NCBI RefSeq assembly: GCF_041260155.1
Contig: NW_027248277.1
Coordinates: 9,726,675 to 9,790,674, forward strand
Length of the DNA: 64,000 nt
Origin: Ptychodera flava
Lineage: Eukaryota; Hemichordata; Enteropneusta; Ptychoderidae
Direction: 5' to 3'
Part shown: positions 11,997 through 62,370 of the stretch, one piece after another
Layout of the letters: each line of letters begins with the position of its first letter
Position numbering within the stretch: the stretch's first letter is position 1
Notes under the pieces: generated by a model
Told to the model about the DNA's origin: nothing
What the model saw: only the letters and a program-made list of their open reading frames with translations
The model's database searches: none
Translations under genes and position numbers: made by a program

Positions 11997-12051
11997 TATA
12001 AAACAGGCTGCAGTGCCCTGAAATCAGACAAGCCGTCAGCTTCACACCGAG
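11997..12051 (+). promoter_or_regulatory. Gene A core promoter and non-coding first exon
   Basis: TATAAAA lies at 11997-12003. A TCAGAC initiator-like start lies at 12024-12029, 27 bases downstream. A donor-like GTAAAG follows at 12051, which would make the first exon non-coding. The next exon begins after the acceptor TTCAG at 12307. The spacing matches the promoters of genes C and E. Confidence 0.6.
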
Positions 12052-12311
12052 TAAAGATTGAATCGAAGATAGCATATATATATATATATCAGTAAGTTTT
12101 AACAAGACCTTTGCACATTTCTTCATTGCTAAAGCGTTCATCTCTGAGATGCGATGTTCCTCGGCAGACGTACGGAAAAGAGTGAAAAAATCTTAACATT
12201 ATTTACGTTAATTTTCTATCAGCGTTCAACGTTTAATTATTCTCCGTCATTCAAAACAAAGTAGTGCAATCTTGAATATTTTTTTTTCATTTTTCTCTCT
12301 CCTTCAGGAAT

Positions 12312-15300
12312 ATGATGCGACTACTTCTGGCTTTTGTCCTGTGCGGATGTCTTTCACAGTCTCATGCCCAACCAGGTAACTGTATTGGCTTTATGAAATC
12401 TCATATTTGGTATCAAAATAGCAATACATAAACCCGAGCTGTATCTTATTTTGATATATTACCAACAGAACTAACAGAGAAACATTTAATTTTGATTGTT
12501 CTTCCGATACACTAAAATGCATACAAAAACACCGAAAATTTCCTTTCAAGTTAGATGTGACTGGTCCAAACATTTATTAGGTAAACTTGGTCATTGCAAG
12601 CCGTACGTTTAATCGATAAAATAAAACACCATCAACGTTGACATTGACCTTTGAATAAATACACTACTTCTCTATGTCTGGCTTTTCTCAATGCTAACCT
12701 AAACAAATCGATAGTTCCATAGCTATCAATCTAATGAAGTTGTTATTGAGGAGAAATGTGATCTAAGGACACACAGAATCCTATTTCTCCAGGAGCGCAT
12801 ATTATATGGATGCACCCTAAATTTAATTTTCACTTCCAATTTTTCCTGGTGTGAAAAGCTATGTTTGTTTTTTCCTTATAAGGCCATTCAACATGATAGC
12901 TATCAATTTCATCTGTAATTTCGATTTATTTTGTTTCCCAAAATCCGAAATTTTTGGCTCCTTATTTTCTATCTTGATGTACATCAGTTGGTCGTTATAA
13001 AATAAACTACCAGAGTAGGTTTACTTACATGAATAGATGACACATGTGAAAGAAAACCCACTGATAATGAGAAAAAAAATCAAAATTTTATGCTCAGACG
13101 ACTTACATCCGACCCCTTATTATCAATCACTGTTTCCTTACGTATTCAATAGTTTTTGTATGAGCTATCTAAATTAAGCGATGTATTATGTCGAAGCAAA
13201 TGGTCTATCTTCTATTAGAAGGTAGGGGAAGTGAATGATGAAACATTAAAGTCAACAGATTGGCCGAAATGGTCGTCTTCATATATATCTAAACTCTAGT
13301 TCATTTCTTATATCTGGAGCTCAATTACCTACGTCGGACTCGCACCCTTCAGAGAAAGTTGGACTATTTACTCGGCTTACTCAATTAAACCTGGTGACAA
13401 AGAATCTCAATTGCTGTTCAGGAGAATTATCTTCACCGTGCCACAATACAAAAGATTGCTTCGTCCAATGTATACTGATATGCATTCCATTTTCTCTGTA
13501 GATATTGCAGCAGGCGATCTCACGGTCAAGGCGCCCCCTCCCGCCACTGGTAAATATGTCGTGTTCACTGAAACCACCATCAGCTTCGACTTAACGTACA
13601 CTGTGACAGACACAATCACTCCCACAGCAGTCAAGATGTACTTCAGCAATGATGACGAATCGAAAAAGACAAACCCAGAAGTAACTGCATTGGGAGCTGG
13701 TGCACCCGATGGTAAAGCAATAACTGACGGCGGAACTTACTCTGATCTGGCTGCAAAAATAACATTGGACGGGGAAAACTGCGCAGCTTACACTAAACTC
13801 TGCGTCAACATTGAAACAGAAGAAAGCGAATCAAATAACGATAATAATAAAAAATGTAACGATTTAGGCCCAACTGCTGGTACAACAGTGTGTGCAGGTA
13901 GGCAATTAAACTAAACAGCTCCACTTACTGCTTCGATCAGTACCAATAGAATTGAGGGCTTTCAAATAAATATTCTTTCATAGCTATGATCTTGGTCCCG
14001 TGCACGCATGTCGACTATCAGCAAGTACATTGTATACCCATGGATCGCTCTACACTGCCTTCGTCATGCAATGATAAGAGGTAGACTTGATGTATAAATA
14101 CATAAATCATTTTCGTCGTTTGTTACTTTTAATGCCGCAGACATAAGGCAGAATAATTCTCTTAAAACAGGAACAGCGTGCGCAGCGCCCTCACTTATCT
14201 CAATGATATCTTAATTATTTCAAGTAGATAATGAAAGTCAGGAAAAGAGATTCATTGGAAATGAAGTTTCACAAAGTTTAAGGAAGCTAGTAGCTGCAAA
14301 TGGAACAATCCTTGTTAACACTTTCACCGCAGTCAAAAGAAAACAAAATATTTCTTTCTTGACATTTTTTGCAAAGCAAAGCAGGCGGCGAACGATTTAA
14401 AAAAATTATGGGCTGTATGAACAAGCAAAATCTCCTATCAATAACATTTTCACTGATTACTTGGAGATTGTTTGTATGTTAGCATTTCCACATGCTAGGA
14501 TGTAAAAGTCTCATACCAAGAGAGACCTAATCGATAGAACTATAGTGCGGTAGTATTTGCTTGCTTCAATTTCAAAAAATACATGCATGATTTGTTAACA
14601 CTGGCAATGCTATGGAACAATTTAATAATTCTTCTCGGCTGGTATGTAAAATTTTAAATGCATAATTAAAAAAATAAACATTGAGAGACAGCTCTAGCTT
14701 GGTACCAAAAAATTGAAAAATGCTATTTTCGTGCTGTTTGCAGATGTGGGTGCGGGAACGTTTACTTTGAAAACACCAAATCCTGCATCGAGTGGTTATG
14801 AGCTGGACAAAGCCACGGCATCCACGTTTGATCTCGCCTACACTGTCATCGACACCGGGGCGACGGTCGCCAATGTCAAGGTGTACTTTAGTGATGCTGA
14901 CGGCAGCACAAAATCGACAGAGCAAACTGCAGGTGGGGACAATGCACCCAAAGACGCGGCCGTTGGGACGTCTGGCAGCTGGACTGGGCTTACAGCGACG
15001 CTTACGTTGGATAAAGCGAACTGCGCGAAATACACCAAACAGTGTGTTTCAATCACCGCTAACGATGAGTATCAAGGTAACAACGAAAAATGCATCGAAT
15101 TTGGAGCAGGCGCAGACAAGGCTGGTGTAAAACCAAGTTGCACAGGTAAGAGACAAGTTATTTCAGGGTCATATTTCACGTTACTGTATCCAAGTGTATG
15201 TAGATGGACTGACAGATCTGTCTCTCGAGGGCGCTCGCTGCTCTCGTAAAAAGGAGGCGCTCAGAGAGCGCCCTCGAGCGACGGATCTTTCAGTCTACGC

Positions 15301-18300
15301 GGTATGCGGACTTGGTCCATGTCTGCGCAGTACATGTGAGTTATTCGCGAAATAACAACTACCGGGTTCACATCTGCGCAGAATCTCTCCTATGAGTCCG
15401 TCATGTCAGTAATATACTTTTTGGTTGAATTAACACAGGTGCACGATTTGACTTCTCTTTGGCGTCGCGTGTACTACTGATCTTAATATTCTATAGTCGA
15501 AGCAGAATACGTCTGGTAGATACATTTTTGGACCCCTAATTTTTTATCTGTTCCACAGTTTATATCGGTTCATTTTGAATGCTGTTATTGTTTTCACTTC
15601 TTTGCTATGAATAGAGCATATTTTTCTCAAAGTAACCACAAGGAATTTTTGTCATTCTTAATTTGCGATTTGACCTGAGATATAATATGCATATTTAATC
15701 TAAAATTTAAACGATAACTCTTGTGTTTCATATGTATTTATGGAATTGAATAGTTAAAAGATTACACGAACAAGGGAGCAAATATCTTCATGAATGGCTC
15801 ATCTACCTCAAATTAATTATATAACAGAGACTCGGCGATCTTGACACAAGGGCGCCTTATCTGTACATGTTACCGTGCATGAGTTATACAGGTGACTGTC
15901 GAACACAGCGGAGATTTGAAGGGCGCAGCCAGCGGTCGCTATCCGTAAAAGATTCGGAAGAAACAATCCGAGCTTGAAGTCATAGACGTCTGACTTTTGA
16001 GATTATCAGTTCAGATTATCAGTTTAGATTATCACTTCAGACCATCACGTCACACAATAAGGGTTTGACAATACAATGTATCAGGCTGGCACCACGCTGG
16101 TCAGAACATTTTTATATTCGCGTATAAAAAATGAAGTCAGGAATTCGTGCAAAATCTTTGAAAGCTATACTGCTGAGCTAAGCAGTGACACGACCTTGAC
16201 ACCATATACGCCTATGAGAAGCGCTCATGATTCTTTCCATTAAACATGCGCACTCTCTATCCTATTTTTTCATCCTGTACATTCGTTTACGGTCATATTT
16301 GTGTTCACATTGGGGATTTCTTTTCTGCACTAGCTGATTCCCCAGCTGACTGTAGTGATCCCGGACCAGCACCGACTAATGGTCAGAAAAGTGGCACAGA
16401 TTACACTCACGGCTCAACTGTAACGTACACTTGTGACAGTGGCTTTACTTTGAGTGGTGAGGGTACTTTAACATGTGACGATGGGAAATGGAACCACGCT
16501 GTGCCTACGTGTACTGGTAGGTGATCAATACAGATCAGCTGTTTATCAAGACATCAGCAGTGACGTAGGGCTGAAATTTCACCTTTAATCGTTCATTAGT
16601 CTATCTGCTTATTTTGTCTATTTGGCTTCTTGTCTGTCTGTTTGTCTGTCTGTCTGTCCGTCTGTCTGTCTGCTTGTATCTACACAAATTGCTACTTTCC
16701 TCCCCTTAAGGTGAAGTACTACGAATTACGTCAAAATTAAGTTGTGGTGTCATTTTCTTGAAACTTTGCACAAATATTCTTGGAAGTTGTGCAAGTGCCA
16801 TGGAAACGGACGTTAAAATGGCGTCGTTAGAAATAAATAAAAATGATATAATTCACTCAAACTAAAGAAAGCAAGTATCGATTACAAAATGACGATATCG
16901 AAATTATATCACTACATAATTTTCGAACTTTCTTAATGGGTGATATGCGCCATGTAAATGGGAGAGAAATGTTAATTTTTCGCTCATATTGAATAAAAAC
17001 CAGCTTCCTAGGGGGTCAAAATATGACAAGTTTATAGGTCACATGTGTTTCTAAGAGACTGGGTCAAAAAAATAGGTAAAGCGCAATTTCAACAATGACA
17101 GGTGATGTTAAATACATGCGCTACAAAGTAACCCATTTGCGACAGGCTGGAGTTAAATCTGCGCAGAAACGTTCTAAAGCGTGTGCGCGTCCGAATTCGT
17201 CGCCCTTTACCCTAAGGTAGAACGCGCCTCGGGACAGAAATTCGCGCTTTCAAATTTTATCTATTCTCTTCTGACCTACCTCTTGTGGGGGCTCATTTTG
17301 AAGCTCTTGATGAAATTAAAGTTTTCACCGTCTTAGTTTTTCGAAAATCGAAATTTTATTCTTCCCTATAGAGTTAACACAGGGATGGCGGCCATTTTGA
17401 ATTTCAAATATCGGGGAATTTCAAGCAATTTGTCTCTCTAATATCAAAGTTTGCACGGTGACCCCAGACTTTTATTCTTGCTTTGATAAAAATAGTCGAA
17501 AGTTTCATTGAGGAAAGTTTGAGCAAAAGTTTAAGTCTTTCACTTTCGAGGCGCATGTTACCTTAACATTTGGCATTATCTCCCGCTGTCTGTTCAGTGG
17601 GTCATGTCTTTCTTACTCAAAATTTTTGCTACCGCTGTAACATATCATTGTTCCGAACAGCTTACATGTGTCTGTGTTGCCTCATTTAGTTTCCTCATTT
17701 CTTTGATCTTTCGCTATATATGTACTTGCCCAAAGTTGCAGTACTAACAGACATTTTAAACTGTATTTGCCCCATGTCTGTTAACTATCAATCCGGGATT
17801 ATTAAGTGACTAAGGTAGAAAAGAACAGGTATATATTTATCCGAAATAGAAGAACACGAACACGCCTATAAACTCGAAATACTTTACTTAGCAGATCACC
17901 TAATCACAGCACTATAAAACATTTTGAGTTATCTTCATGTTTTGTAGCAAATTTGAATTTATATTGCAATCAACGGGTTTTTAGCTTAAAAGTCATCTTG
18001 ACCATTGTAAATATGAGGAAGAGATTAAATTAGAGGCATCTTAAATTAGCAAATTTAAACACTTTGCTAAATTAGCTAAAAAACATGCTAGCTCAAAAGA
18101 CTTGTTTCACAGCAATTAACTCAAATGAGAAATCACCCTGGGGGCTGATATTCATATTTTCAAACTTGCGTTTTTGGTCTACCACTGTGAGGTCCGATTT
18201 TTAAGCTCTTGGTAACTAAAGTTTCCACCTGCTTATTTTTGTGAAATTTAAAAATGTAATACTGTCACCGTAGAGTTAACATGGGAAGGCAGCTATTTTG

Positions 18301-18604
18301 AATTCCAAATGTCGGTAAATTTGGAATTATTTGTTTCCATAGTACCAACATTTGCACGATCACCTCCGTTGTATTCTTGATTTTAAAAATAATGGTTTTA
18401 AGTTTCGTTTACAGATCGAGCGAAAGTTTGTCTCTCAATTTTGAGGCGCATGCTATCTTAACCTTTAACAAGTTAGACTGAGGCGCGGATTTTCTTTAAT
18501 CCATTTCCTTACCATCGCTTACAGATGATTCCAGTGCTGGAATGCTGACTGTGAACATGTTCATGACATTGATTGCACTCATGGCAGCTCTATTTCAGAT
18601 GTAA
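12312..18604 (+). CDS. Gene A: secreted GPI-anchored-type protein, two novel domains plus one CCP (374 aa)
   Basis: Joined from exons 12312-12375, 13502-13897, 14744-15145, 16334-16516 and 18525-18604. All junctions are GT-AG and phase 1, and the frame is open throughout. Residues 1-19 are a signal peptide (core LLLAFVLCG, cleavage near SHA). Residues 22-153 and 154-287 are two copies of the family's novel domain, each with C-x6-C and two later Cys ending CxG. Residues 288-348 are a canonical CCP/sushi module with four Cys and the usual Trp (GKW). Residues 349-374 (DDSSAG then a hydrophobic run to the stop) look like a GPI-anchor signal: no charged cytoplasmic tail. Two ATGs are adjacent at the start; the first is used here. 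The protein should sit on the outer cell surface. Ligand unknown; a recognition or adhesion role is inference. Introns carry miniature transposons and a hairpin. Confidence 0.82.
15200..15298. repeat. Imperfect hairpin in gene A intron 3
   Basis: Two arms of about 33-36 bases (GTAGATGGACTGACAGATC and CGAGGGCGCTC against GAGCGCCCTCGAGCG and GATCTTTCAGTCTAC) flank a loop of about 30 bases. The arms include AGGGCGC motifs. It could be a tiny palindromic insertion or an RNA hairpin. Nothing shows that it is processed. Confidence 0.6.
16627..16675. repeat. (GTCT)n tetranucleotide microsatellite
   Basis: Runs of GTCT with a few substitutions in gene A intron 4. Confidence 0.9.
17213..17566 (+). 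mobile_element. Miniature inverted-repeat element, GGTAGAA family, copy a
   Basis: About 354 bp with ends TAAGGTAGAACGCGCCTCGG and GAGGCGCATGTTACCTTAA, in gene A intron 4. The interior shares CACAGGGATGGCGGCCATTT, TTGCACGGTGACC and AGTTTAAGTCTTTCAC with the other copies. The terminal TTAA may be part of the target duplication, but I could not delimit it. No coding capacity. Confidence 0.8.
18139..18462 (+). mobile_element. GGTAGAA-family miniature element, copy b (diverged)
   Basis: Same interior order as copy a (AGAGTTAACA, then GGCAGCTATTTTGAAT, then TTTGCACGATCACC, then TTGAGGCGCATGCTATCTTAA) with many substitutions and a degraded left end. It lies just upstream of the last coding exon of gene A. 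Confidence 0.7.
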
Positions 18605-19920: not shown

Positions 19921-19926
19921 AATAAA
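19921..19926 (+). terminator. Poly(A) signal of gene A
   Basis: AATAAA lies about 1.3 kb after the stop codon and is followed by a GTGTGTTTCTTCTC-type downstream element. The distance from the conserved 3'UTR boxes matches the other paralogues. Confidence 0.6.
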
Positions 19927-20314: not shown

Positions 20315-20315
<1 letters not shown>

Positions 20316-20399: not shown

Positions 20400-20402
<3 letters not shown>

Positions 20403-25104: not shown

Positions 25105-27112
25105 TCACATCCTTATCGCGACCAGCGTCAGAAGACTGGAAATCATGAGCAAGACAACACTCATAGCAGAGGTCCCGGTACCAGAATCAGCTGAAAGAAA
25201 ATGTGCAAAACTCAGGCCAATGGAAAGAAAAGAGATAAAAACCACTCGTTTCTAGTCTAGTGTTGAAACTCAAGCATTTACTTGAACATGGAAAAGTTGC
25301 TGACGGAAGCGGATTATGGGATATAACTGTTTTCACATTGTTAGCTTTAAATAAGAAAGTGACGTGTTATATATTATTTTAATTTATTGCGTTAATTGCT
25401 AACTGTAAGGAAGTTGACATGTGATAATTGCATGCACATTTTAGCATGACGGCTTTTATTACCATATTTATGTAGTTATCAAAAAACGAAATGCTGTAAG
25501 GAAAGGTCAGAAATCATGTGATTTTACGTGGCTTATCAATCCTATTAAGCAATTATTCTGTTTATTATTACCAGTTGTGGCCTTAGCCGTCGTTCCACTG
25601 TCTGACGAGATCATTGTAGACACATAGAACGCATGTAAGGAAAGAAAAACACACACACTCGTTACATGCGTACAGAAAACCATGAATTGTCATTTCATTG
25701 CTATCAAATAACATAAGCCGTATAAAGCGTGCAACGTCAAGTTCACCGGGACGGGATTCGTTAATAAAGATATCTGACCTTTATGAATTTTAATTTTGCT
25801 TTGAGCTTTGATCTATTCAGTGTGTTGTACCATATTGCTTTGTTTTCTGCACAATCGAGATCATGTGGCAATGATACGTTTGCAAGTAGGTTTGTTTGCC
25901 AATACAAATGAATTTTGAAGACGTGTGGTTTCTCTCCCTTGAAAACAAATTGAAGTTGCATCGAGTATACAAGACTAAATTCTACGAACGGATCAGAAAG
26001 CAATGAAATGTTCCATGAAAGGATAAAATATCGTGGTGATAAATTAATGTAGTAAAGAAATATGAACAGTATGATACTGAATGAGGGACGTCGAATGGTC
26101 ATTAGACTTACCGGTACACTGTGTACTTTTACTGATGTCGGTACATTTCACATCGTTGTGAGGTTTGACAAAAGCGCAGATCAGACTGAAGTCAGCACAG
26201 TTTGTACTAGGCACTCCCCTTGGCGTCGCTGATCGCTTTCTCCCCCGCCGTTCCGCTATCTTCGGCAGGTATAGCGACGTCGAAGGTAATATCACTGACT
26301 CCTAAACTCCGGTCGGCTACTTTAACTTCTTTCTCGGTTTTGGTGAAATCTGCATTGTCGGATAAGTAGAGTTGTACGTCGGTGACCTTGGTGGCGGTAC
26401 CGGCGTTTGAAAACGTCAATCCGAATGTCAGAGTTGTAGCTTCTGTGTCTTTTAGAGTGTAGTCACTGGGTCCAGTGATTGAAAATGAGTCAGCTTTGAT
26501 TGTAATCACTGGAATGAATCATAGAATTAATAATGAATAAATTGATAAAATAAAGACAAATAATAAGAAATAATAAAAGTTATTCAATGAATGAATAGAT
26601 AAATAAACTCAGTGTTATATGATATTTGATATTTAATACATCAACAGGATATAAGGTAATGGTCAAGTTTGAGTTTCTTTAAATACTTACAGCTGCAGTC
26701 AACTTTGCCAGTTATGTCGACAGAGGCGACGTCATCATCGGGTGTAACTTGAATGACTAATTTTGTGAAATCTCCACAATTAGTTAGTGCAGGAACGGTG
26801 ATGTTAGCTATAGCATTGGAAACCTGCTTTACTCCGTTGTTGCCTCCCTCCTTTTTCGGTACGTTTACAGGGAATGTTATTCCTGATAAACCACCGTCTT
26901 TATCAGCTACCTTGACTTTGTCAGTAGGTTCGAAGTTTTCGTCATCTGACAAGTACAGAGCCATATTGGTAACATCTGTTCCTTCTGAGACGGTGTCATC
27001 GTCGTTTTCAAGTGTCAGACCGAATGTGATAGCGGTAGCTTCGACCAGCATGAGTTTGAAATCAGAGGGTGTTACCGAAAAGGTACCAGTCTCAACCGTA
27101 ATGGCTTGGCGG

Positions 27113-27197: not shown

Positions 27198-27599
27198 ATT
27201 AAGTATATAAGTTTAACATACAGGTAACCAGATATGCGAATAATGGTGTCCAATATAACAATATTATACAATATTTCATTGCATTGCACTCATTCACTGG
27301 TTCGAAAGAGCGGGCATTCCTCAACGGGCCATTAGCGGTCCGCCGAGGAACTTTCGCGAAATCAACCGATCATCACTCATGGCAGGGGGCCTTGAATTTA
27401 GCGAAGAAAGAGACATAAACTGGTAAAGATGTGATGTGAGAACGATTGTTTACTCGTATAATTCTTGTATTACCTGCAAATATAACGATTGTACCACCAT
27501 AGCTCATATGAGTCTATTATTGTTATACAGAAGAAGTAACGTACCAGCGTTAGAAAGGCAGAGGCATGTCGCCAAAGTTGTCAACAAAACGATGCTCAT
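25105..27599 (-). CDS. Gene B: secreted GPI-anchored-type protein, two novel domains (frame broken in domain 2)
   Basis: Minus-strand exons are 27599-27545 (signal peptide, core IVLLTTLATCLC), 27104-26691 (domain 1, open, 138 codons), 26508-26112 (domain 2) and 25190-25105 (tail). Introns are phase 1. The tail reads ADSGTGTSAM then a hydrophobic run ending in TGA, like genes C and D, so GPI anchoring is likely. The domain 2 exon is 397 bases, not a multiple of three. Its N-terminal part and its C-terminal part (C-x6-C onwards) lie in different frames, with the break close to 26220. Domain 1 lacks the second Cys of C-x6-C. A 30-base exon at 25601-25572 (DSGTTAKATT) with fitting splice sites is possible but unproved. 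Expected length is about 317 residues if the break is an assembly error; otherwise the gene is a pseudogene. Confidence 0.68.
27118..27195. repeat. (GA)n microsatellite serving as pyrimidine tract
   Basis: On the gene B strand this is a (CT)n run ending about 12 bases before the AG acceptor of exon 2. No other pyrimidine tract is present there, so the repeat probably acts as the polypyrimidine tract. Confidence 0.85.
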
Positions 27600-33211: not shown

Positions 33212-33246
33212 TATAAAGCAGCATGATACCGATGAAACAGTCAGTT
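33212..33246 (+). promoter_or_regulatory. Gene C core promoter
   Basis: TATAAAG is at 33212-33218. The initiator-like TCAGTT is at 33241, 29 bases downstream. The start ATG at 33274 is 62 bases after the TATA box, exactly as in gene E. Confidence 0.65.
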
Positions 33247-33273
33247 ACTGTTGTTTTACTCTGCTGTACAGCC

Positions 33274-36200
33274 ATGGCGGAAATCGGGTGAGTTTTTTAT
33301 GGAAGGCATTGATACTCGCAAGCGTTCCAATGCAGAAGTATTCTCGAATATATGATAAGATATGATATGTATAAATCACGAGAAATTTACATCATTTTGC
33401 GCAGTTAGAGAACTATTGAATTCGCAGTTTAATAAGACTTTTTCTGAAAAAAGATTCACACTTTATGTATTTTATTTTTCAGGACATTCAAACTTACTCT
33501 GGCAATACTTTGCCTAATCGGTGTTTCCATGAAATCTGAAGCCCAAGGTAAGCTTCAAAGAATACATGAATTGTACACAATTATTCGGCTTATTTCGAAA
33601 GTGAAAGACAAACTTTTGCTCAAACTTTCCTCGAGGATTCTTTCAACAATTGTCTTTCAAAATTAAGAATAAAAATCAGGGGGTACCGTGCAATTTTTGG
33701 TATTAGAGGAACAAATTAGCCCAGATTTACCAATAATATTTGAAATTCAAAATGGCTACCATCCTTGCTGTGTTAACTATATGGAGAATAATACAATCAT
33801 CGATTTTCGAAAAACTAAGACGATGAAAAGTTTTCTTACCCAAAGAGCTTTAAAATGAATCCTCACAAGTGGTATATCAGAAAAGAATGGTAAGGAATTT
33901 CTGTCTCCGAGGCGTATTCTACCTCAATATGAATTTTTGAATTTTCATGCACATGCATGTATTTGTCTGTTGCATCAGTCATTTTTAATTTGTCTTATAT
34001 CGTAATAAATTTGCTTAACATTACTGACATTGGCATATGTACTTAAGTTAATATTATTCCCCAATAATTGATGTATTTTATTTTCACAGATGTCTCGGTT
34101 GCATCCACGTTAATTACTAACGCCGACAAGGTGACGTACATGGTTGGTGGCAGTGCACAGACTATCACCATCACTCTCGGGTTGACAGGGGACGGGACCG
34201 ATGATGGCAGTGTCACCAAGATGGAAGTTTACTTCACTGACAATGTAAAATTTGAAGATAGAGATACCGCTAAGACGTCGAGTCCAGTAGCAAAGGACTT
34301 CACACCACCGATTACGGTTCCAAGCGCAGCATCAGACAAGAAAGATCTCATTGAAGATGAAACCGTTGAACTTACAATAGACTCCGCCAAGTGCGGAGAG
34401 TACTCTCACGTCTGCGTAGTACTGACTGCGACAAATGATCCTGATACTGACGATAACGATGGGTGTCTGCCATTCGGTAATTCCGTTGGTACAGAAGCGG
34501 GAACGAAGCAATGTACAGGTATTTACAGAAAAATTTACAATTACTTTTTGAATATAGGTTCGAATTCTAAAATCTGCTAAAGAGATATATTATTATAAAC
34601 CTTTGAGTGCAGGACTAGCATTTATATTATTTAAAATTAACTTAGTTCCAAGGGCCCACATTCGCATTTATCTTGATAGTATCACTCAGTAGGCTAGTGT
34701 GTATATATCGTCATTGAGAAAAAACCAATTTCTGAGAAAGAAGTTTACGAAATTTAGTTTTATGGCTTGCAAAATAATAGACAACGTTTGATGAAAATTA
34801 CCAACGTAACGGTAGAGAAATTAAGTACATGTGTGAAATATTAATAATGATGTATTGGACTGAATAATGATGAAGATGTCTTGAGGTCGGCCGGGTATAA
34901 TAGCAATGAACGTTTCTCTTTCCCCGCACAGTTCCAGGTATTAAAGACAACAGTTTCACCGCCACGGCTCCCGAAACGTACACCATCGACACTACAACCG
35001 CAGTTGCCTTCACGTTCTCCATCGGTTTGTCGAATGCTGACACCGCGAATTCCATCATCTGCACAGCTATCAACATACATCTATCCGATGACGAATCTCT
35101 GACAAAGAAATCTACCGCTGTACCCGCGGCTGGGAAGACGTTTCCACTCACAATCGCCGCTAGTGCAGACGGAAACACCGCCACTACTGGTTTGACCGCT
35201 AGCATCAAGGCAGACGCTGCGCAGTGTTCTTCGTACAAATACATGTGTGCGCAAGTCATTCCAGGCAATGCCATAGACTGTTTCAGCATAAGCGACAAGA
35301 TAAAATGCCCAGGTAAGAATTTTTCAGCTATACGCAACTGCTTAAACGAAATCAAGGTGAATTATATTTTGTTAGGTCAATTATTTTAAACAAAACAAAC
35401 CTACGAACAGTGGTGCGGTCACCACCACTCCAGTTAGTTCGGTGGCGTTGGTGGCGGTGTTGATGGCGATATCCGGTCTTTCAAGTTCGGCTTCAATTAG
35501 CATGCATAGGCTTAGACATTTCAACTTTCGACAAAAATGTAAAACGCCAGAAAATTCAACATGGAAAAATTGCGCCGTCATTTTGTCCATTTCATAATAT
35601 TCCACAACTTCTAGCGACAGAATTCAAAATAATGAAGATTTGACACCGCGATTTTGTCCGCTACAGAACGATTTTTCAACTTACCGATTTCTGTGTCCGA
35701 TATTTCATTCTATCAGACTCTACCCCAGCGCCGGGTGTTCTCGCGGACAGTTTCACCATTACGTCACCGTCTAGCTACACATTCGGAACAGCAAAGGCCG
35801 TCGATATTACCTTCTCGATCGGTCTGACCAACACTCACACCGCTGCCGTCGAATGCACCGCCATCAACACTTACCTGATGAAGGACACTTCGGAAACAAC
35901 GAAGTCAAGTTCGTTTCCAGTCGCCGGCGCGACATTTCCGATATCGGTTGCCGCCGGTGCGGACGGTTCAACTGCGACTACCGGTTTAACCGCAAGCATC
36001 AAAGCCGACGAGGCGCAGTGTTCGTCGTATGACCGTCTGTGTGCCGAACTCACACCGGGTGGCGCTAAAGGCTGCCGTGATGTCAGCAAAAACATTAACT
36101 GTGAAGGTTTTGTAATTTTAAATTCAAATAAACATTAATATTTTTGCTTCTAAAGTTTCAGTTCAACTTTTAAATACATTTTCCTGGAAGCGTTGAATTT

Positions 36201-36703
36201 TTACTTAACGCGCGGATGTCACCATATTCACATAGTAGGAATTGACATCATGCGTTACCAAATGCTCCGGCTCCCACTGAGTATAAACTTCAAATGCATG
36301 GCTTCGCAAGTAGTTGCTGTACTAACATCCCAGTTGCCTAACTTTAAAAATAGAAATTAATCTGTTTTATAGCACCTTCTGTTGGCGTAAAAATTTCTCT
36401 AAAACTCGTGTGTTAAAATATGTAGCCTAACTACCATGCGTAAGTGCGCCCTCTATGCACACCAGTTATTTTGGCACCTCTTGGTGGCTCCCTTGTGGCG
36501 GAGAAGGTTTGGAATCTGTAAATACTGCTTGCCTAACTTCCAGAGCTGTTATTACCTATCACTAACATAGAAGTTCTAATACTGAGCCAAGTTGTGTTTT
36601 TATTTATCACATTACAGGTGACTCTGGGGCTGGATTCGTGTCTTCTAACACTCTGCTGACAACCATCCTGGCATTCGCTGTGATGCTAGCCGTGAGACCT
36701 TGA
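33274..36703 (+). CDS. Gene C: secreted GPI-anchored-type protein, three novel domains (454 aa)
   Basis: Exons are 33274-33287, 33483-33547, 34090-34518, 34932-35312, 35717-36106 and 36618-36703. The frame is open throughout and every junction is GT-AG. The first coding exon is only 14 bases (phase 2); all later introns are phase 1. Residues 1-26 form a signal peptide (core LTLAILCLIGV). Residues 27-169, 170-296 and 297-426 are three copies of the novel domain, each with C-x6-C (for example CGEYSHVC, CSSYKYMC) and two later Cys. The second and third domains are most alike (shared TTGLTASIKAD and LCTAIN-type segments), so they arose by the latest exon duplication. Residues 427-454 (GDSGAG, hydrophobic, ending VRP) are the GPI-type tail. 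There is no CCP module. A surface location is inferred from both termini. The ligand is unknown. Confidence 0.85.
33595..33926 (-). mobile_element. GGTAGAA-family miniature element, copy e
   Basis: Reverse orientation in gene C intron 2. It shares AAATTCAAAATGGCTACCAT, GTTAACTATATGGAGAATAA and CCGAGGCGTATTCTACCTCA with the family. Confidence 0.75.
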
Positions 36704-48788: not shown

Positions 48789-51700
48789 CTACTGTGCCAA
48801 CACTGCGATGGCCAGTACCAAGATAGTCAGAATACCAACAGTGAGGGAAGCTGATCCAGAGTCGGCTGTAAATAGACAGACACACGTTGACAAATTCGTA
48901 GACAGTTCGTGATACAGAACAGAAGGCAGACAGAATAAGATAGGCAGAGAGAAAATTCAGAGACTGGTAATGTGAAAGAAAAGGAATCACGAAACCAATT
49001 TATAAAATATAATAAATACAAAAAACAATATCTCCTGGGCATGCATTGAGAAATTTTAAAATATGTGTAAACAATAAATATTCAATTGCCATAAACACTG
49101 TTTGCTATAGCGCCATTGGACCCATGTACAAGTTATTAGTGATTCAATTAACATATCGTCTTTTCAATACTTTAGTAATCCTAACTCAAATGAGATTAAT
49201 AGAGGCGAGGGGAATTCTTAACTCGTGAACCATCCTCCCAATAGTGACTGAAGTTTGCTGCCTTTGCTTTGAAAATGAAAATTACGATGCAGGTGGTGAC
49301 TAGGTGAATATCAAAATGTACTTTTCGGAGCCATTGCAACTGGGATTTTAAAAGAACTTTTCATCAGATTCAAACTTGACATTAAACTACACCCCGTACC
49401 TGTACATGTGGGGAGGGTCAAGGTACCCCCTGTACACACAGTAGGGTTGGTTCCGCCCAAAGTGTATCCGTCATCGCATTCAAATTCCACTGTCGCTTTG
49501 TCGGCAATGGGATAGGTCGGAGCGTCACCCTTGTACTTGAGTCCAGTGGACAATGTGCCGGGATCGGCACAAGTAGATGCTGAATTTTAGCGTAATGATA
49601 AAATCTATTTATTTCTTAGTTTAGAGTTTCAACCAGGGACAAACTGTATCGCAATTATTGTGCCTTGCTCTGAACAAATATCCCAACTTACAAAAAATCG
49701 TAAAGGCCTTTGGAATATGTCTGTTAAGTTGTCGCATAACCTACTTAACCCTTTGAGTGCTGTAATTTTTCCCACCAAAACTTCACTGCCACATTTTGCC
49801 AGTTTTTATGAATTTTTCTGAAATTTGTTGATAATTTTTGACCAAATGGACACCATATTTCATTTGCTACAGTTTTTTATTAAAACTTTGGAAAAATCTA
49901 AGAAAAATTGACTGAGGTATATTTTTAAAGGGGGTGGGGGAAATTGACGTTGGCGCTCAAAGAGTTAAACATTTTATACAATCAAGGCAATGCGAGCCTT
50001 GAACAAACACTTTAAATTTTGGCTCAAAGACTAAGACGTTTGGACGACACAATGTACGAATTTTGTAATTTTAATATTTTACTTGTGATTTGTAAATTTG
50101 AAAACATATTTTCTTTAAAAATTAATTATCTCATGCAATCGCGACAAAACCCCTTCCATCTGACTGACATTCACGGGCTGATCCTGATGGAGAATCTATA
50201 TCAGTGGACAGAAATTTTGGCCCTACCTGTACATGTTGGGAGAGTCAGGGTACCCGCGTTACACACGGCAGGGTTGGTTCCGCTCAACGTACGTCCATCT
50301 TCACATTCAAACTCCACCGTCGCTTTGTCTGCTATTGGGTAAGTTGGAGCATCACCCTTGTACTTGAGTCCAGTGGACAATGTGCCAGGGTCCGCACACG
50401 TTGTTGCTGCATATTAATAAAATGCAACTGACTTTAATCATGTACCAGGGCTAGCTACTTTACTAAGTGCATTTTCTATTAAGTGAAGAAGTTTTTATAA
50501 ATCTCAGTTTCATTGATTCGACAGTAATTAATAGCATATCCGGGTTCTGTTCCTTAGTAGTTGACTATTTTATCTCAGAAAGGAGCAGTCAAATACGGGA
50601 AAATTGCTCATCAAATTCTGTAAAAGATTACACTCACCTTGCCTTGTTTCAAAATATTCACATGACTTTAAATATAAATATTTTGAATTCCGGAGAATTT
50701 CCTTTTGAATATTAAAATATTGAATTACGTGTTATCTTGCTTCTTCATTAAGATAAGAAAAATAGACAAATCCTGAATTGCGAAGAAAGGTTATTTCCAT
50801 TCTCACAATTGCTTTCAAATATCCCATGGCTCATCATTTTGAGACAATGGTACGTGATTAATTTTATTACTCAGAAACCACATTAGAAGTGTCATGGAGG
50901 GACAGGAAAGAAAGCGCAAATCGCATACAATAATTACTATCTACTTGATTAAACATTTTACTCAACAATGCAGTGGCTAGAACACTACTCAAACGTTAAA
51001 AGAATTCTTTAGCCCTTGAAGGGTTTATTGTGAAAGCACAAATACTAAAGTCTTCGTCACCAAGCAGTTAACCTCGAGGAAGAAAATTGTAATTTTCTCT
51101 TACCAGTGCAGGTTGGAAGTGTTAATGTAACACCAGTACATGGCGCTGGATTGGTGCCACCTATGGCGTAGCCAGCTTCACATTCAAATTCCACTGTAGT
51201 GCCATCATCTATAGGATATGTTGGATCAGATGTTTTGTATTTCAGTCCAGTTGGTAGGGTTCCTGGATCCGGGCACTTTGTATCTAATTTAAGAGAAGAA
51301 TAAGAAAACATATTGGAAAAATGTGTTCAATGAAAAGCAGATATTAAATATGCAGTTTATTCATGTAAGGCCAATAAAAAAGAAATGTTTCTGGTCAGGT
51401 CCTTCTTTAAAAAATGGTGCGGCGACGCGCATTTTATTTTTTTTTTATTTTTTTTTCTCTCAAGGGTGGAGGAGGGTCAGTTTATAGTTTTATCAATATA
51501 GTCACATATATACTGTTCATGCAGTCACTGATCATGCCCCCCAAAGAATTTTCTCTTTCTCTTCAGCCATTTTGGTTTGGTGTCAGCCACGGCCGCCGGC
51601 CACAAACAGAAAAAAAAGGGTGACGCGCTGTTGTTCAAGTGACGCGCGCGCTGACCAGAAACATTTCTTTTTCTTTTTTTGGCCTAAAATGCTCGTTTTT

Positions 51701-52312
51701 TGCCAATAGTACTTTTCAGAGCGTAAGGATACACTGTTACTCACTTGAACATGTCGGTGGAGTAAGCGTTGTACCACTGCACACAGCTGGGTTGGTGCCA
51801 ACTAAAGTGTAGCCAGTTTCGCATTCAAATTCAACTTCTGCGTATCAGGGACAGGATATGATGGAGCAGTACCTTGTGTTTGAGAGGCGATGCTACTGTA
51901 GGCGCGTCACATTGACCTAGAATTATAATGAAAAGCAAATGTTAAAGGAAATGTACAAATTTGCTCCAGACCAAAATGCGTGATTTATCTTAGTTGAATT
52001 GGTTATCCTAATATTCTCCTTTATTCTAAACAAAATTAAAGGCAATCTCACCAACTCCATAGAACAGAACACTACAAGGATGCTCAAACCTGTGACAAAC
52101 CTGAAAAATAAAAAAACATGGTGCATTGCATGTGATACATTGTAAGATATCTATTTTATTAAATACTCGATATCTGCAACGCCTTCCCCAAATATTGTGT
52201 CGAACTCGCTTAAAAATTACAGCAGCTGTAAGTCGAAGATGAATCAAAAGTGTTAAAATATTTTTCTCTATTCCTAACTGGAGAATCATTTGTCCTACCT
52301 CATTTTCCACAT
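48789..52312 (-). CDS. Gene D: secreted GPI-anchored-type protein with four CCP modules (N-terminal module broken)
   Basis: Minus-strand exons are 52312-52299 (14-base start exon), 52100-52052 (signal peptide, core GLSILVVFC), 51916-51745 (CCP1), 51283-51104 (CCP2), 50406-50227 (CCP3), 49579-49400 (CCP4) and 48865-48789 (tail ADSGSAS plus hydrophobic run to TAG). CCP2-4 are 60-codon class 1-1 exons with four Cys each and open frames. They lack the usual Trp before the last Cys (TLTLPTC where GKW..PTC is normal). CCP1 is 172 bases: its Cys pattern is visible only across shifted frames, and the signal exon ends in phase 0 where phase 1 is needed. About three single-base losses would explain this. 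CCP3 and CCP4 are almost the same sequence (recent duplication). Surface binding protein by inference; possibly a pseudogene or assembly-damaged. Confidence 0.7.
49745..49968. mobile_element. piggyBac-like miniature element
   Basis: TTAA flanks both sides (49745-49748 and 49965-49968). Ends are CCCTTTGAGTGC and GCGCTCAAAGAG, inverted repeats with one or two mismatches. It lies in a gene D intron, about 220 bp, no coding. TTAA target plus CCC start fits piggyBac-type elements. Confidence 0.7.
51376..51672. mobile_element. Short element with perfect 22-base inverted ends
   Basis: AAAAAGAAATGTTTCTGGTC (51376 onward, 22 bases in all) pairs perfectly with the segment at 51651-51672. The interior has GACGCGC motifs on both sides. 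It lies in a gene D intron between CCP1 and CCP2. No target duplication is evident. Confidence 0.6.
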
Positions 52313-52396: not shown

Positions 52397-53206
52397 GCAA
52401 TTAGTAAGGAGAAATATGTAAATGTCCCACACGCCATTGGTCTATAAAGACTACAGCTGCCCAATAGAATTTGATTGGGTTGTCCATAGACCTCTAAATT
52501 ATGTTAAAATTATTTTTCATATATCCCATCATTCCTTGCGAGAAAGGAGGGTTTTGAAAGTTTGTTTGCTTTACAAAGCTCGGTCCCGAACTCGGAGTAC
52601 CCATTTTCAAAAACATATAATTCATTATGTCATAATTTGCTTTGACATGTTTCAGCCATCATCGTGATTTGCAGATAACAATAAGAGGAGGTGCCTTATT
52701 TCGTTGAAATATACAATATAAATGCAATGTGTAGTTTGTAAGCGTCCCATTCTGTGAGAGTCACGTACGTGTACTAACCTTAGGAGGGACATTTTCAATC
52801 GGTTCAGAGGCGTGCATACCCATTTAAATGGCATGCTACAGTCCACGATTTGCTATAAATGTGGCCATTCACCCAGCTATAATCAGTCACGTTGGCATAT
52901 ATTATATCTTGTCTACTTGCCCGGGAGCACAGAGACCTTTCCATGATGCAAGAATCCTATATAGCAATTTTTCTGGAGAACTCAATCAACAACCCTAGTA
53001 ACCAATTGGACTGTTCACGTCGGAGAACGACCGTCAGTTCCTCAAATTGAAACAAATTACCCAATATAACCGATACTTACTATAATTCAAAATGGCCGCC
53101 ATCCCTGCATTATCTCTATTTGGAAAATACAATTCGCGATTGTCAGAAAGCTAAACTCGCATAAACTTTACTTACTCCTTTAGTTTCAAAATGGGCCTCA
53201 CAAGTG

Positions 53207-55816
53207 AATGCGTGTACGTAGCGTCCAACCAATTTATTGAAAATTGAAAATTGAAATCACCTTCATAATGCAATTTTCATTTGGATGAAATAACAACCAA
53301 TTTTTAATATTCGTTTTTCAGACAAAATTTTTATTTTACCGATTTTTTGATACGGTTTTCGCGGCCAATCAATTCCCAAAAATATTAAACAGCCTTTTGG
53401 CATAGAAAGCAACATTTGAAATGTTTCAAATCATTTTATCTTCGTTGAAAAAAAACGATTGACGGCCCGTTTTAAATAAAGTTTCTGCAATTTCATTATT
53501 AATGAAACATAATTCTGTTTCGCCTTCTTTATATTTTGAATCCGAAAAGCAATTTTCAGTAAACACAAATTAAGCTTTAATCAATTAATTCTGTTTCATT
53601 CATAAGATTTGAAGACACAAGTTCGGGTTTACTTTTATTGAACGTTCCTTGTTTCATATTTTGATTTTAATTCATTTTTTAAAATGATGTTGCCATTCTC
53701 AACAAAGCATAAAATAATTTCAAGTCGTCAACTTTATTCTATCTTAACATAACAAAAATGAATTTCTTCCGATTTTTGTAAAATTTAAAATATAGGATAA
53801 TTTTGACATTTGAAGGAGAACAAAAATGATGAGAATCGAAACTCGTTAATACTAAATCATGTACAGCTAAGTTAAAATGAATTCGCTGTTCATTTTGTTA
53901 CTTGCGAAAATTGAAAATTGAAAATGGTAAGTTTCAACCATTTTCATTTTTTGAAAATGGTCGAAAAACGACTTACATGTTATTTCAATTTCTTTGCTGT
54001 TCCTGGCCCTCTACCGGCCAGTGGGCGAGAAGCGATGCGTGCGAGATTTCCGGCTTCCGTCAAGGCAAGAACTGCGGTAAATTTAAAATAGAGATGTCTT
54101 CCTTAGTCTCTGAAGAGTTTATGCGGCAAGTGGTTGTTTTTCAAGGTTAAACACACCGCGAGATAGCATGTACTTTGAAAGACTTGTTTCCTGATCACAA
54201 TCTGTCGGGATTAAGCGAGAGATCAGTGCTCAGATTTTGTGAAATACATGAAATTAAGCGACGCCACACGCCGAACAATGACCAATGATTAGTACAACAT
54301 TTACTGTTAACATAACGAGCACTAGCAACGCTCAAAATATGCCCTAAAACAAAAATTCTTATTTATAAGCGTCCAGAAACTCGGTCGATGCTGGGTCATG
54401 TTAATTATAATATGACACCACACACCGGATCGCTCGCTATAGTCTGTCAATAGAGTGGCTAACTCTCTGAGCTCTCTCAATAACGAATCTGGCTTCTCCT
54501 CCTCGAGGACGAAGATGACTTCATCACACAACCAAGCGGGGGGGATACAAAACAAGAGAGCGACTGATGAAGGAACCCCATTTTTGGTTCCGAAACACCG
54601 TTAAGACGAATCACTCAATCAACAAACCGGTTTACCGGGGACCCAGATCACATGACTAGGGTCAAAGCACTATCGATTCACCGGTGTCTCGACAAAGTAA
54701 ATGCAATGATCCTTTTATTCACCACATCGTAATACTAAACAATCTTGGTAGAGCCGATGTGTGGAGTAGTCCTACGAGTATGGCGAGAGTGTCCGGCTTT
54801 GGCTACGCCGTGGGAGGCATTGTAGCCAAAGCCGGACACTCTCGCCATACTCGTAGGGCTAATTTGTGGAGTTGCCCTCAATTTCCTTTATATCGTCTTC
54901 GGTGGCCAGTCTTCCGCAGCACATGCAGTAAGCGCGGGAACAAGTATGCGTTGCGGAAACCGGAAGTCTCGTACGCATTGATGCTGCTCACCCACTGGCC
55001 GGTAGAGGGCCGGGAACATCAATTCAAATGAGTTGTCTTTCGACCATTTTCAAAAAAATGAAAAAGGTTGAAACTTACAATTTTCAATTTTCAATTTCTA
55101 ATTTTCGCACGCACCAAAGTAAAATTGCAAATTCCTCTTAAATCGGTAAGACATGATTTTATTTCAAAGAGTTTCCGTTCTCTTCATTTTGTTCTTCATC
55201 AAATACGTACAATGTCCCGTAATAAATTTTACGAATCTTGAAAATAGTACTATTTTTTTTATTTTAAGATTAGGTAATATTTTGATACTGGTAATGATTT
55301 TTTTTGTTTTGTTGAAAATGAAAACATCATTTTAGGATACAAATTATAATATGAAAACAGAAACTGTCCTTAAAAATAATCCAGAACACGTGATTTTGAA
55401 ATTTAAGAAATAAAATAGAATTAATAGATTAAATTTCATTTTGTTTTCACTGATAATTGCATTTCGGATTCAAAATATGAACAAGGCGAAACAGAGTTAT
55501 GTTTCATTAATAACCAAATAATAGAAGCTTTATTAAAATTGGTCTGTCAATTGGTATTTTCAATTAAGATGAATATGAAAAATAAAATTCTATTTCAATC
55601 ATTTAAATAACGCTTTTTGTGCTAGAATACATTTTAATATTTTTGAGAAATGATTGGCCGCGAAAACCGTGCCAAAAAATCGGTAAAATAAAAATTTTGT
55701 CTGAAAAAACGAATATTAAAAATTGGTTGTTATTTCATTCAAATGAAAATAGCATTTTGGAGGTGATTTCAATTTTCAATTTTCAATAAATTGGTTGGAC
55801 GCCACGTACACGCATT
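53207..55816. mobile_element. Foldback DNA element with about 855-bp inverted ends (2.61 kb)
   Basis: AATGCGTGTACGTAGCGTCC at the left is mirrored by GGACGCCACGTACACGCATT at the right. Matching continues inward, with substitutions, to about 54062 and 54960. The 6-bp target duplication CAAGTG is at 53201-53206 and 55817-55822, inside an older miniature element. The roughly 0.9-kb centre has no protein domain that I recognise and contains a perfect 36-base hairpin. Non-autonomous; superfamily unknown. Confidence 0.82.
54771..54857. repeat. Perfect 36-base inverted repeat with 15-base loop
   Basis: Arms 54771-54806 and 54822-54857 are exact reverse complements (outer ends CCTACGAGTATGG and CCATACTCGTAGG). 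It lies in the centre of the foldback element. No divergence between the arms means a very recent origin or continuing correction. Confidence 0.92.
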
Positions 55817-55889
55817 CAAGTGGCATATTAAAGAGGACTTGTAAAAGTGTGAGAGTCTGAGTGAATGTCCCATTCCACCTCATGACATA

Positions 55890-56650: not shown

Positions 56651-56660
56651 TCCTCTGGAC

Positions 56661-57233
56661 TAGTCTGGTTCCCTTGCCCATTTCTTCCGCTGGCTGTAAT
56701 GCTAACGAAAATTGGATCAGGTATGGACAGTCAGAATTTTGACAGCATATTAATGAGCCCAGTCACCTGACAAACTCAAGTGATCAGCACATCTGTATGC
56801 TGGTAATGCTGGAAATTTGATGACGAAACATCGAACGTTGAAGTTGTTTGCACAGCTTCACTTTTAAGTCTCCGACTCTGCTCTTCTACGATGGTATTAA
56901 GTAGGGAAATGACGATTACCGGCTATGGTGTTTTTTTCTCAGACGTGACCTGGTGACTACGGTGACCTTGCATGGAAATGACTCAAAAAAAGATTTTTCG
57001 TTTTTCATTCAATGTCGACATAGCATGCTTGGTTCTCAAAACTGTGGAGGTAAAATTACTCCATGGGCAAACGAAATCTAAATTCGAAGGTAGCTCAAAG
57101 TTGGAAATAAATTCAATGCAATGACTGCACTCGTACTATTGACCAATGACAGCCATGCTTACATAGCCCGTACCTGACCCTATTTTCGTTAGCAGCGCAG
57201 CCAGCGGTAGAAATGGGACATGAAACCAGACTA
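56661..57233 (+). mobile_element. MULE-like miniature DNA transposon, copy 4 (573 bp)
   Basis: Ends TAGTCTGGTTCCCTTGCCCA and GGGACATGAAACCAGACTA. The 9-bp target duplication has one mismatch (CCTCTGGAC at 56652-56660, CTTCTGGAC at 57234-57242). Subterminal CGCTGGCTG/CAGCCAGCG is present. It carries the peptide fragment SFFIQCRHSMLG, then GGKITP, parallel to copy 3. A second fragment with CCGCTGGCTGCGCTG starts right after it near 57261. Confidence 0.8.
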
Positions 57234-57299
57234 CTTCTGGACAACTACTCCATTCTGCCGCTGGCTGCGCTGTGCCCATGACGTTTCTGCCGCAATCGC

Positions 57300-60200: not shown

Positions 60201-60600
60201 GACAGACATGGTGAGAGAGACGCAGTCAGACAGATGGCGGCAGTGAGATTACAGTTCAGTTTTTTACTTTGTTGGCTAGAATCTTGCCTAGAGGTCTAAA
60301 ATCACCAGTTTTGCCGTTTTTGAATCTTTAATCTTCACATATCAGGCTTATCACGTTCGAGCATGTTTTTTAAAACATTGACTGTATTGTGTATTTGCCA
60401 TGGAGTTTCAAGAGAACCCTTTGTCATAGTGATGTCGCGGGTATCTATGCAAACACAAAACAACATTTTATTTATGAATGACATATCGGGTGATATTTAA
60501 TCCACCGATGAATAAAACCAAATTAATATCTGACTTGAAGCAAATTGATTGCTTACGGCTCTTGACCAAGCGTCATGCGCGAACAAGCCCCAATAAACAA
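57300..60600. other. Intergenic region upstream of gene E
   Basis: No gene I can support. Frames at 58031-58342 and 58535-58885 are open but unrecognised and overlap frames on the other strand. A degenerate (GACA)n, purine-rich tract runs about 60055-60235. Confidence 0.5.
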
Positions 60601-60618
60601 CAGGTATCCATGGCACCA

Positions 60619-60678
60619 ACCAATCAAATCTTGCGCTCTGTTATAAATGCTGGAAACAGAGATACAGCATTTCAGTTC
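60619..60678 (+). promoter_or_regulatory. Gene E core promoter
   Basis: CCAAT is at 60620-60624, TATAAAT at 60642-60648 and TCAGTT initiator at 60672-60677. The ATG at 60704 is 62 bases after the TATA box, the same geometry as gene C. Confidence 0.65.
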
Positions 60679-60703
60679 ACTCATGCAGGGAACTGGTGTG
60701 AAG

Positions 60704-62370
60704 ATGGGACGGTAAGCATGTTTAACCGTAGAACTATGCCGACATTTTACTGGTAGGAGTGAAGACAGCCCGACTGTGTGCTGATATCAGGAGCTATCTT
60801 TTTCTTATATCCAATGGCATTGGTGTCAAGGTAGAATGCGCCTTAGGGACAGATATGCGGACTCTCAAACTTTTAGCAATATTGTTTGGCCCACCACTTG
60901 TGGGGACTCATTTTGAAGCTTCTGTAGTAAAGAAACTCTTCACCGGCTTAGTTTTGTGACAAAAATGGGAATTTTATTTCCCCATAGAGATAACACAGGG
61001 ATGGCGAACATCTTGAATTTCAAATACCGTAAATATTGGGTATTTTTTCCCGATGTCAAATTTTTTCAAATGACCCCCATTATTATTCTCGATTTTGATA
61101 GTGAATGGTTGAAAGTTTGCTGGAGACAAGTTTGAGCAAAGGTTTAAGTCTTTCATTTTCGAGGTGCAAACTACCTTAAATTGGCGTTTTAAAATTAATT
61201 TTTGATAGATCTTTATCACTTTCTTTGGTGCTAATGTTTGTCTGATTTTGTTTAACATTGGCGTCGGCGACGTCTTCCTTCCAGATTTAGCAGTATCCGT
61301 TTGGCAATTGTTTTATCGGTATTGTGCTGTGCCGTGCATTGGAGCCATGGAACGGGTGAGTAAGCCGTCGATTTGCATGACAAATATGATCACATACTGG
61401 CATACAATCACACAATTATCGCAAAAGTCTCAAATAGTCGTGTTGCAAAGTGGTATTACTCGACATACACACGTCTTGGTCACTTCTAGCACAGTAAACT
61501 CGACGCAAATGTGAGGGTTCGAGAAGGATGGGTCGCTAAAGTGCTAGTCCAAGTATCACTCGCTCTGAATTTCATTATTAGTCAGTCAGTATCCCACTGG
61601 TTTGAAAACCGGAATGTGTGGCATGGTACGGTCAACAAATTTACCATGCATGAACAACGCAGCGATTGAACCTGATCTTATAATATTTGTTACAATTTTC
61701 AATTCCCTAGGAACAATGTACCAGTGTCTTCATTTTTCTCACACGTTTGAAAACAGGCACATTTCCTAGAATCATTAAAATTAGGCTTCGTTCCCCTCAT
61801 TTTCTTTACTTTCATACATTTAGTTAATAAGAATTATATTTACACGTCATCAGGAACTTACCAATTGCGTGTAATTGATTTTTCAGGATATTAAAATCTA
61901 TGAGAAGAGGATTGATTGATTGATCAAACGTTCTTTTTATTTTCAGATATCGTAATAGACAGTTATGAAATAACTGATCCGGCTGATCCCGCTTCTGATG
62001 TAACATACAACAGAGCCACGGACACTTCCTTAGTCTTCACTGTCACGGTCAGTTCGGCCCTTACGGGTGGAGATGTGGAAGGATTGATGTGTACTTTGCG
62101 GCAGCAGATAACTCAGTGATTGGAACAGCGAAAGCAGCGGGGGGTAGTGCTCCTACCGATTTAAATCCTACGCCAGTTACTGGCGGTGCTAGTGATGTCG
62201 ATCTCACAGGGAATACGGTAGAGCTTATATTCGACAGTGAAGAAGATTGTACAGCTGCAACACAACTATGTGTACAAATCAAGGTGATGTGGATACAACG
62301 AACGACAACGACGTACACTGTTTGAATTTAGGAACAAGTCCTGGTGAGGTCGGGGGCAAAGACTGTTCAG
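60704..62370 (+). CDS. Gene E (partial): signal peptide and one novel domain, frame broken, continues beyond the window
   Basis: The start exon is 8 bases (60704-60711, ATGGGACG, phase 2). Exon 2 is 61285-61355: signal peptide with core LAIVLSVLCCAV, ending in phase 1 with donor GTGAGT. Exon 3 is 61947-62370, a copy of the novel domain (DIVIDSYEITDP at the start; C-x6-C as CTAATQLC; later Cys to the CSG end and donor GTAATC). Exon 3 is 424 bases and its three segments lie in different frames, consistent with two single-base losses near 62083 and 62283. No tail exon or 3'UTR element is seen before 64000. Either a pseudogene or an assembly artefact; the intact splice sites and promoter favour a real gene. 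Confidence 0.65.
60828..61179 (+). mobile_element. GGTAGAA-family miniature element, copy g
   Basis: Ends CAAGGTAGAATGCGCCTTAG and GAGGTGCAAACTACCTTAA. The interior is the family sequence. It lies in gene E intron 1, between the 8-base start exon and the signal-peptide exon. Confidence 0.8.

Follow-up and report, generated by a model that had tools for sequence, protein, structure and literature searches.

Organization of the gene cluster

The sequence analyzed here is a window of 64,000 nucleotides from the hemichordate Ptychodera flava (RefSeq assembly GCF_041260155.1, contig NW_027248277.1, positions 9,726,675 to 9,790,674 of the forward strand), and all coordinates are counted from its first nucleotide. 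The window carries a real gene cluster. Five genes, designated A to E, lie in alternating orientation (A+, B−, C+, D−, E+), an arrangement that was proposed in a first-pass annotation of the same DNA and is borne out by the domain exons, the complement control protein (CCP) exons and the tail exons. A, B, C and E share a domain, each copy of which is encoded by one exon (two copies in A, two in B, three in C and one in E, eight in total). CCP modules occur once in A and four times in D, which is built of CCPs only.

Gene A was assembled as a single open chain that begins with the signal peptide, ends at the stop and is 370 residues long. Its signal-peptide exon (12312..12375, +; MMRLLLAFVLCGCLSQSHAQP followed by the split codon G) ends in phase 1 at GTAACT and has an acceptor AG just upstream, with an alternative exon start at 12308. 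It is followed by domain copies A1 (13502..13897, +; phase 1-1, four Cys) and A2 (14744..15145, +; identified by protein comparison, profile and exon borders), a CCP/Sushi module (16346..16516, +; 171 nt, phase 1-1) and a tail exon with stop codon (18525..18604, +; DSSAGMLTVNMFMTLIALMAALFQM). Gene C likewise forms a single open chain, of 449 residues, running from the signal-peptide exon (33483..33547, +; TFKLTLAILCLIGVSMKSEAQ, split codon G at its end) through C1 (34090..34518, +), C2 (34932..35312, +) and C3 (35717..36106, +), all three identified by profile and exon borders, to a tail exon with stop codon (36618..36703, +; DSGAGFVSSNTLLTTILAFAVMLAVRP). All modules are intact in A and C only, because B1, E1 and the first CCP exon of D are frame-broken.

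Gene B consists of a signal-peptide exon found in the signal-exon scan (27545..27599, −; MSIVLLTTLATCLCLSNA, split codon G at its end), copy B2 (26691..27104, −), copy B1 (26112..26508, −), which has one frame break in its second half, and a tail exon with stop codon (25105..25190, −; DSGTGTSAMSVVLLMISSLLTLVAIRM). If B1 is left out, signal, B2 and tail give an open frame of 184 residues. Gene D contains CCP1 (51745..51916, −; 172 nt, AG/GT borders, two frame breaks), CCP2 (51104..51283, −), CCP3 (50227..50406, −) and CCP4 (49400..49579, −), the last three being 180 nt each with AG/GT borders, and a tail exon with stop codon (48789..48865, −; DSGSASLTVGILTILVLAIAVLAQ); one reading frame runs from CCP2 through the tail. 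For gene E, a hydrophobic exon resembling the other signal exons (61291..61355, +; SIRLAIVLSVLCCAVHWSHGT, split codon G at its end; acceptor also possible at 61285 or 61294) precedes copy E1 (61947..62370, +; two frame breaks).

The CCP of A and CCP2, CCP3 and CCP4 of D have four Cys each and all exceed the 20.7-bit cut-off of the Pfam Sushi model PF00084 (E = 1.1e-13, 4.5e-5, 2.3e-4 and 2.7e-6, respectively), while of CCP1 only a piece was matched, by a local profile. The proposal that CCP modules are mixed with the unnamed domain in one family is supported; A has both. Profile search found no copy of the domain in D, and comparison of the domain profile with a CCP profile gave no signal (probability 0.1; one of the two CCP rows extended past its exon into the intron). 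Note that CCP modules usually carry a Trp before the last Cys. CCP2-4 of D (49400-51283, −) contain the four Cys but are devoid of Trp; at the DNA level, CCP3 shares 82% identity with CCP4.

The shared domain

The six intact domain exons (A1, A2, B2, C1, C2 and C3) measure 381-429 nt and encode 126-142 whole residues, close to the 127-143 first claimed. Each is preceded by AG, followed directly by GT, and in phase 1 at both ends. Pairwise comparison with phmmer gave E ~1e-24 for A1 versus A2 and 1e-8 for a cross-gene pair such as A2 versus C1. The second part of B1 (26047-26301) was no part of the seed, and a profile of all eight copies recovered it at E = 8.5e-8. In a leave-out test, each gene's own copies were withheld from the profile, and B1 and E1 were omitted from every such profile. 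Matches were then obtained in gene A (E = 3.1e-12 and 1.5e-8), gene B (1.6e-10 and 3.7e-10, with a weak 9.8e-4 for the second part of B1), gene C (5.2e-11, 2.1e-10 and 3.7e-10) and gene E (4.1e-6 for the main piece; the first part of E1 was not significant, at 1.8). The lowest E value among 20 shuffled sets of open reading frames (ORFs) was 0.02, obtained with the full eight-copy profile, whose E1 row held some out-of-frame residues before the first break. Because the main pieces of withheld copies were found again at E values from 3.1e-12 to 4.1e-6, compared with 0.02 after shuffling, the domain family is beyond chance.

Four Cys in the pattern C-x6-C followed by two later Cys are present in seven of the eight copies (A1, A2, B1, C1, C2, C3 and E1, the Cys of B1 and E1 being counted across their separate frames). 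B2 has two Cys only, Cys 2 and 3 both being missing, and this joint loss suggests that the disulfides pair Cys 1 with 4 and 2 with 3. C2 and C3 (34932-36106) have a fifth Cys each, at residues 43 and 46 of the translated exons, respectively; it lies just ahead of the mid-domain motif and might link these two adjacent domains. The YFSD/YLSD-type motif itself is clear in A1, A2, B1, B2 and C1, and has drifted in C2 (IHLSD), C3 (TYLMK) and E1 (VYFAA). On both points the first-pass annotation had been too general. Taken as a whole, its cluster and its domain family stand, its statements on signal peptides, Cys and motif are corrected here, and the frame breaks are added.

Selection was gauged by the Nei-Gojobori method on 21 domain pairs from seven copies (all but E1, with B1 taken as far as its break). 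The proportion of synonymous differences (pS) was 0.69-0.89 and that of nonsynonymous differences (pN) 0.27-0.55, with pN lower than pS in every pair; C2 versus C3 gave pS 0.73 and pN 0.27, and the first part of B1 versus B2 gave 0.86 and 0.38. Among the CCPs of gene D, CCP3 versus CCP4 gave synonymous and nonsynonymous distances (dS and dN) of 0.82 and 0.07 (dN/dS ~0.09), and CCP2 versus CCP3 and CCP4 gave pS 0.86 and 0.93 with pN 0.19 and 0.17. Since synonymous sites are near saturation with the proteins still alike, the domain, judged by these proportions, is old on the scale of synonymous change and constrained at the protein level.

Signal exons and tails

Exons of signal type were found in A, B, C and E and were kept on the basis of position, phase and mutual likeness; the scans listed further candidates. 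Those of A and B have their own ATG. That of C has no ATG at its start and requires an upstream exon; a possible first coding exon (33223..33287, +; ATG, phase 2 out) fits the phase and lengthens the chain to 471 residues, but is uncertain because two hydrophobic stretches then result at the N terminus. No ATG was located upstream of the hydrophobic exon of E, and for D the signal-exon scan gave no candidate and no convincing start or signal exon was found. A signal peptide on every gene, as first claimed, thus holds for four genes with the reservations given for C and E, and fails for D.

The tails of A to D each begin with DS(G/S) after a phase-1 split codon (D, A, G and A, respectively; for B, provided that B1 precedes the tail), which confirms the (A/G/D)DS(G/S) start described earlier. 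Between this start and the stop lie 21-24 residues, most of them hydrophobic, and a cytoplasmic stretch is absent. By motif and hydropathy, then, four of the five genes have the small-residue site and hydrophobic C-terminal tail without a cytoplasmic domain that mark glycosylphosphatidylinositol (GPI)-anchored proteins, and A to D are probably attached in this way. Some rows of the tail scans were chance matches (one of four in one scan, three of six in another) and were set aside. No tail was found for E in the 1.6 kb that remains in the window.

Predicted fold and database searches

Structure prediction and a Pfam profile search of the exon translations, both proposed in the first-pass annotation, were carried out. 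AlphaFold models of A2 (6 alignment rows) and C3 (7 alignment rows) had predicted local distance difference test (pLDDT) scores of 83.1 and 92.4 and predicted TM-scores (pTM) of 0.80 and 0.86. Both models are beta-sandwiches in which a short helix lies within the C-x6-C stretch, and the predicted fold class is an ordinary immunoglobulin (Ig)/FN3-like one. The domain had been called unrecognised. This is true by sequence in the Pfam and NCBIfam copies searched and does not extend to its predicted fold.

Foldseek comparison with the PDB at E ≤ 10 returned 1700 matches for A2 and 1778 for C3, the top 50 of each being examined, and none reached E ≤ 0.001 for either model. The best match of A2 was a GH3 enzyme (E = 9.4e-3). 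An enzyme reading based on GH3 and beta-galactosidase matches was rejected: these enzymes are large and, with TM-scores by target length (TMt) of ~0.1, no more than one of their accessory domains is matched. Against BFVD the best E value was 2.9e-3, with none ≤ 1e-3.

Neither the six intact copies nor the consensus brought any Pfam family model to its cut-off, and the same was true of the pieces of B1 and E1 that read in a single frame. NCBIfam likewise gave no model at cut-off, only two names (best E = 0.011), each from one of the six copies. Four PDB sequence matches to the profile (E = 0.19-1.9; two kinase chains, a hydrolase and the designed protein Pizza3) were rejected, and the consensus alone gave none. 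Relatives were also sought with one of the eight copies per search in prokaryotic, viral or plasmid collections, which are mute on animals. None of 7 pattern matches in viral contigs (A2) and none of 126 in prokaryotic genome contigs (C3) was confirmed, and neither one plasmid record (A2, E = 3) nor two records of one phage (C3, E = 5) was credible. In the literature, no title or abstract opening found names such a domain.

Interpretation

The best reading of the cluster, and the most economical, is that it encodes GPI-anchored modular extracellular proteins for recognition or adhesion, and we hold it with moderate confidence. It joins what is observed directly (the domain family, the exon phases, four tails, four signal-type exons and constraint at the protein level) to a binding role and a mode of family growth that we infer. 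A signal peptide would direct each protein to secretion, and the GPI-type tail would hold it at the outer leaflet. Each protein would carry one to three disulfide-bearing beta-sandwich modules, joined in A by a CCP and replaced in D by CCPs, and the modules would most likely be rigid binding units in cell-surface adhesion or recognition. The family would have grown through gene duplication and the shuffling of phase 1-1 exons. Of the earlier interpretation, the anchored paralogue family joining an uncatalogued domain with CCPs is retained, and recognition or adhesion is kept as a fair inference only.

Several points weigh against this reading. The exon junctions are predicted from genomic DNA sequence, and signal peptides and GPI-type tails were called from hydropathy and motif rather than with a trained predictor. 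An Arg lies close to the end of the B and C tails. AATAAA or ATTAAA is seen downstream of the B and D tails and is absent in the ~1.2 kb after those of A and C. No ligand-binding feature was identified in the modules. dS is finite in 4 of the 21 domain pairs and beyond estimate in 17, so selection on the domain is only roughly gauged. Finally, three of the five genes contain frame breaks, five in all, in 3 of the 13 domain and CCP exons: one in B1 (397 nt, not a multiple of three, read in two frames), two in E1 (424 nt, also not a multiple of three, read in three frames) and two in CCP1 of D (read in three).

These breaks may be assembly errors or true decay. If the latter, the cluster would be decaying: B, D and E would be pseudogenes in part or in full, A and C alone would work as complete genes, and the lack of a convincing signal exon in D would fit. 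We consider this rather unlikely, as the first part of B1 is constrained like the other copies, CCP2-4 of D are constrained and in frame to the tail, and B stays open if B1 is skipped. Moreover, the broken exons retain their splice borders, and each of the five breaks is consistent with a one-base slip such as assembly error produces.

Repeated, constrained modules would suit structural building blocks equally well, and the proteins might be coat or matrix components (of mucus, shell, cuticle or egg coat), membrane-tethered or later shed, instead of receptors or adhesion molecules. The GPI-type tails of four genes imply attachment to the cell surface, and low-complexity stretches, which are usual in matrix proteins, were not seen by eye in chains A or C, which makes this role unlikely.

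A reading of the domain as a diverged offshoot of some named Ig-like family, CARDB or a lumenal domain of the translocon-associated protein (TRAP) complex for example, is similarly doubtful. Alignment of the domain profile with four CARDB-type sequences (three PDB stretches and one typed consensus) by hhalign scored 18.0, above the maximum of 16.2 in 100 column-permuted controls and with two strands in register, but at a probability of 2.1 over 29 columns. Among the Foldseek matches of C3, TRAP or secretory-translocon chains held ranks 1-3 (E = 3.0e-3 to 4.3e-3, TM-score by query length (TMq) 0.41-0.48) and the CARDB chain 3idu_B rank 44 (E = 0.024, TMq 0.37, TMt 0.42); TMq thus stays within 0.37-0.48, and CARDB is not among the top 50 for A2. 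The Pfam search gave no CARDB (PF07705) match from the intact copies, the B1 and E1 pieces or the consensus, although it found a typed CARDB-like control sequence at E = 1.7e-35. Bacterial Ig-like names do recur below threshold: Big_7 (0.011, C1), SusE (0.035, first part of B1; 0.25, consensus) and BT_3987-like_N (0.006, consensus), the last two of which we take to be Ig-like families. These names were set aside together with CUB_M02D8_5_2nd (0.14, C1), MCM (0.097, C3) and CotE (0.022, consensus), because all fall below curated cut-offs and they mostly disagree. The profile similarity to CARDB is weak, a possible lead and not membership.

Hypervariable immune or allorecognition receptors, suggested by clustered paralogues that vary in domain number and make-up and by the CCP partners, are very unlikely given pN below pS in all domain pairs and the low dN/dS of CCP3 and CCP4, although paralogue comparison is blind to allelic diversity and saturated dS can mask local positive selection.

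Beyond the anchored recognition or adhesion proteins themselves, it is possible, and put forward tentatively, that the domain represents an unnamed animal family of extracellular four-Cys beta-sandwiches that spread through the shuffling of phase 1-1 exons and defines an undescribed GPI-anchored adhesion or recognition class. If such a family is real across animals, a name for the domain, which neither the Pfam nor the NCBIfam copy searched contains, would label surface proteins that may so far be uncharacterised. With one, two or three domain copies per gene and with or without CCPs, the locus offers a small, self-contained example of surface proteins evolving by exon shuffling, and structural and binding tests can build directly on the confidently predicted fold. 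Nothing is overturned by the cluster itself: its fold class is familiar, and so is its GPI/CCP setting.

Other features of the window

Introns and microsatellites appear to be present in the window. Tandem arrays lie at 1-1338 (~175-bp units of AATAATGAC-like motifs, 7.5 copies), 43953-45124 (351-bp units, 3.3 copies) and 62982-63666 (178-bp units, 3.8 copies). Within 2061-9581, blocks are repeated at 95-98% identity (2061-2272/3841-4052, 2320-2591/4099-4370, 3066-3363/6305-6602, 4410-4709/8866-9165 and 4880-5077/9327-9524), pointing to recent duplication or a mobile element; four ORFs there gave no Pfam match at E ≤ 1. Inverted arms at 53205-53613 and 55396-55818 form two pairs (complementarity 87% and 80%, spacers of 2326 and 1782 nt) and are possibly an inverted duplication or an element. 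Ten other ORFs in the window gave no Pfam match above cut-off, and the window gave no tRNA in a bacterial-code scan and no Rfam match at the gathering threshold.

Comparison with known systems

TRAP is a membrane complex of the endoplasmic reticulum, and one of its chains (PDB 8rjc, chain 5; the listing gives the complex, not the subunit) is the best match of the C3 model (E = 3.0e-3, TMq 0.48). It is 11% identical to the domain, and TRAP, unlike the genes described here, does not form a clustered family that has CCPs or GPI tails. CARDB (PF07705, for example PDB 3idu) is, like the predicted domain, an Ig-like beta-sandwich, with the two strands noted above in register. The domain described here differs in its four Cys, its predicted helix at C-x6-C, its spliced genes with GPI-type tails and its lack of a Pfam match. 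CD55/DAF is a GPI-anchored protein of CCP/Sushi modules (also called SCR), and proteins of this type resemble A and D in combining Sushi modules with GPI-type tails. They differ in that the main module of A, B, C and E is not a CCP, and in that CCP2-4 of D are without the Trp before the last Cys.

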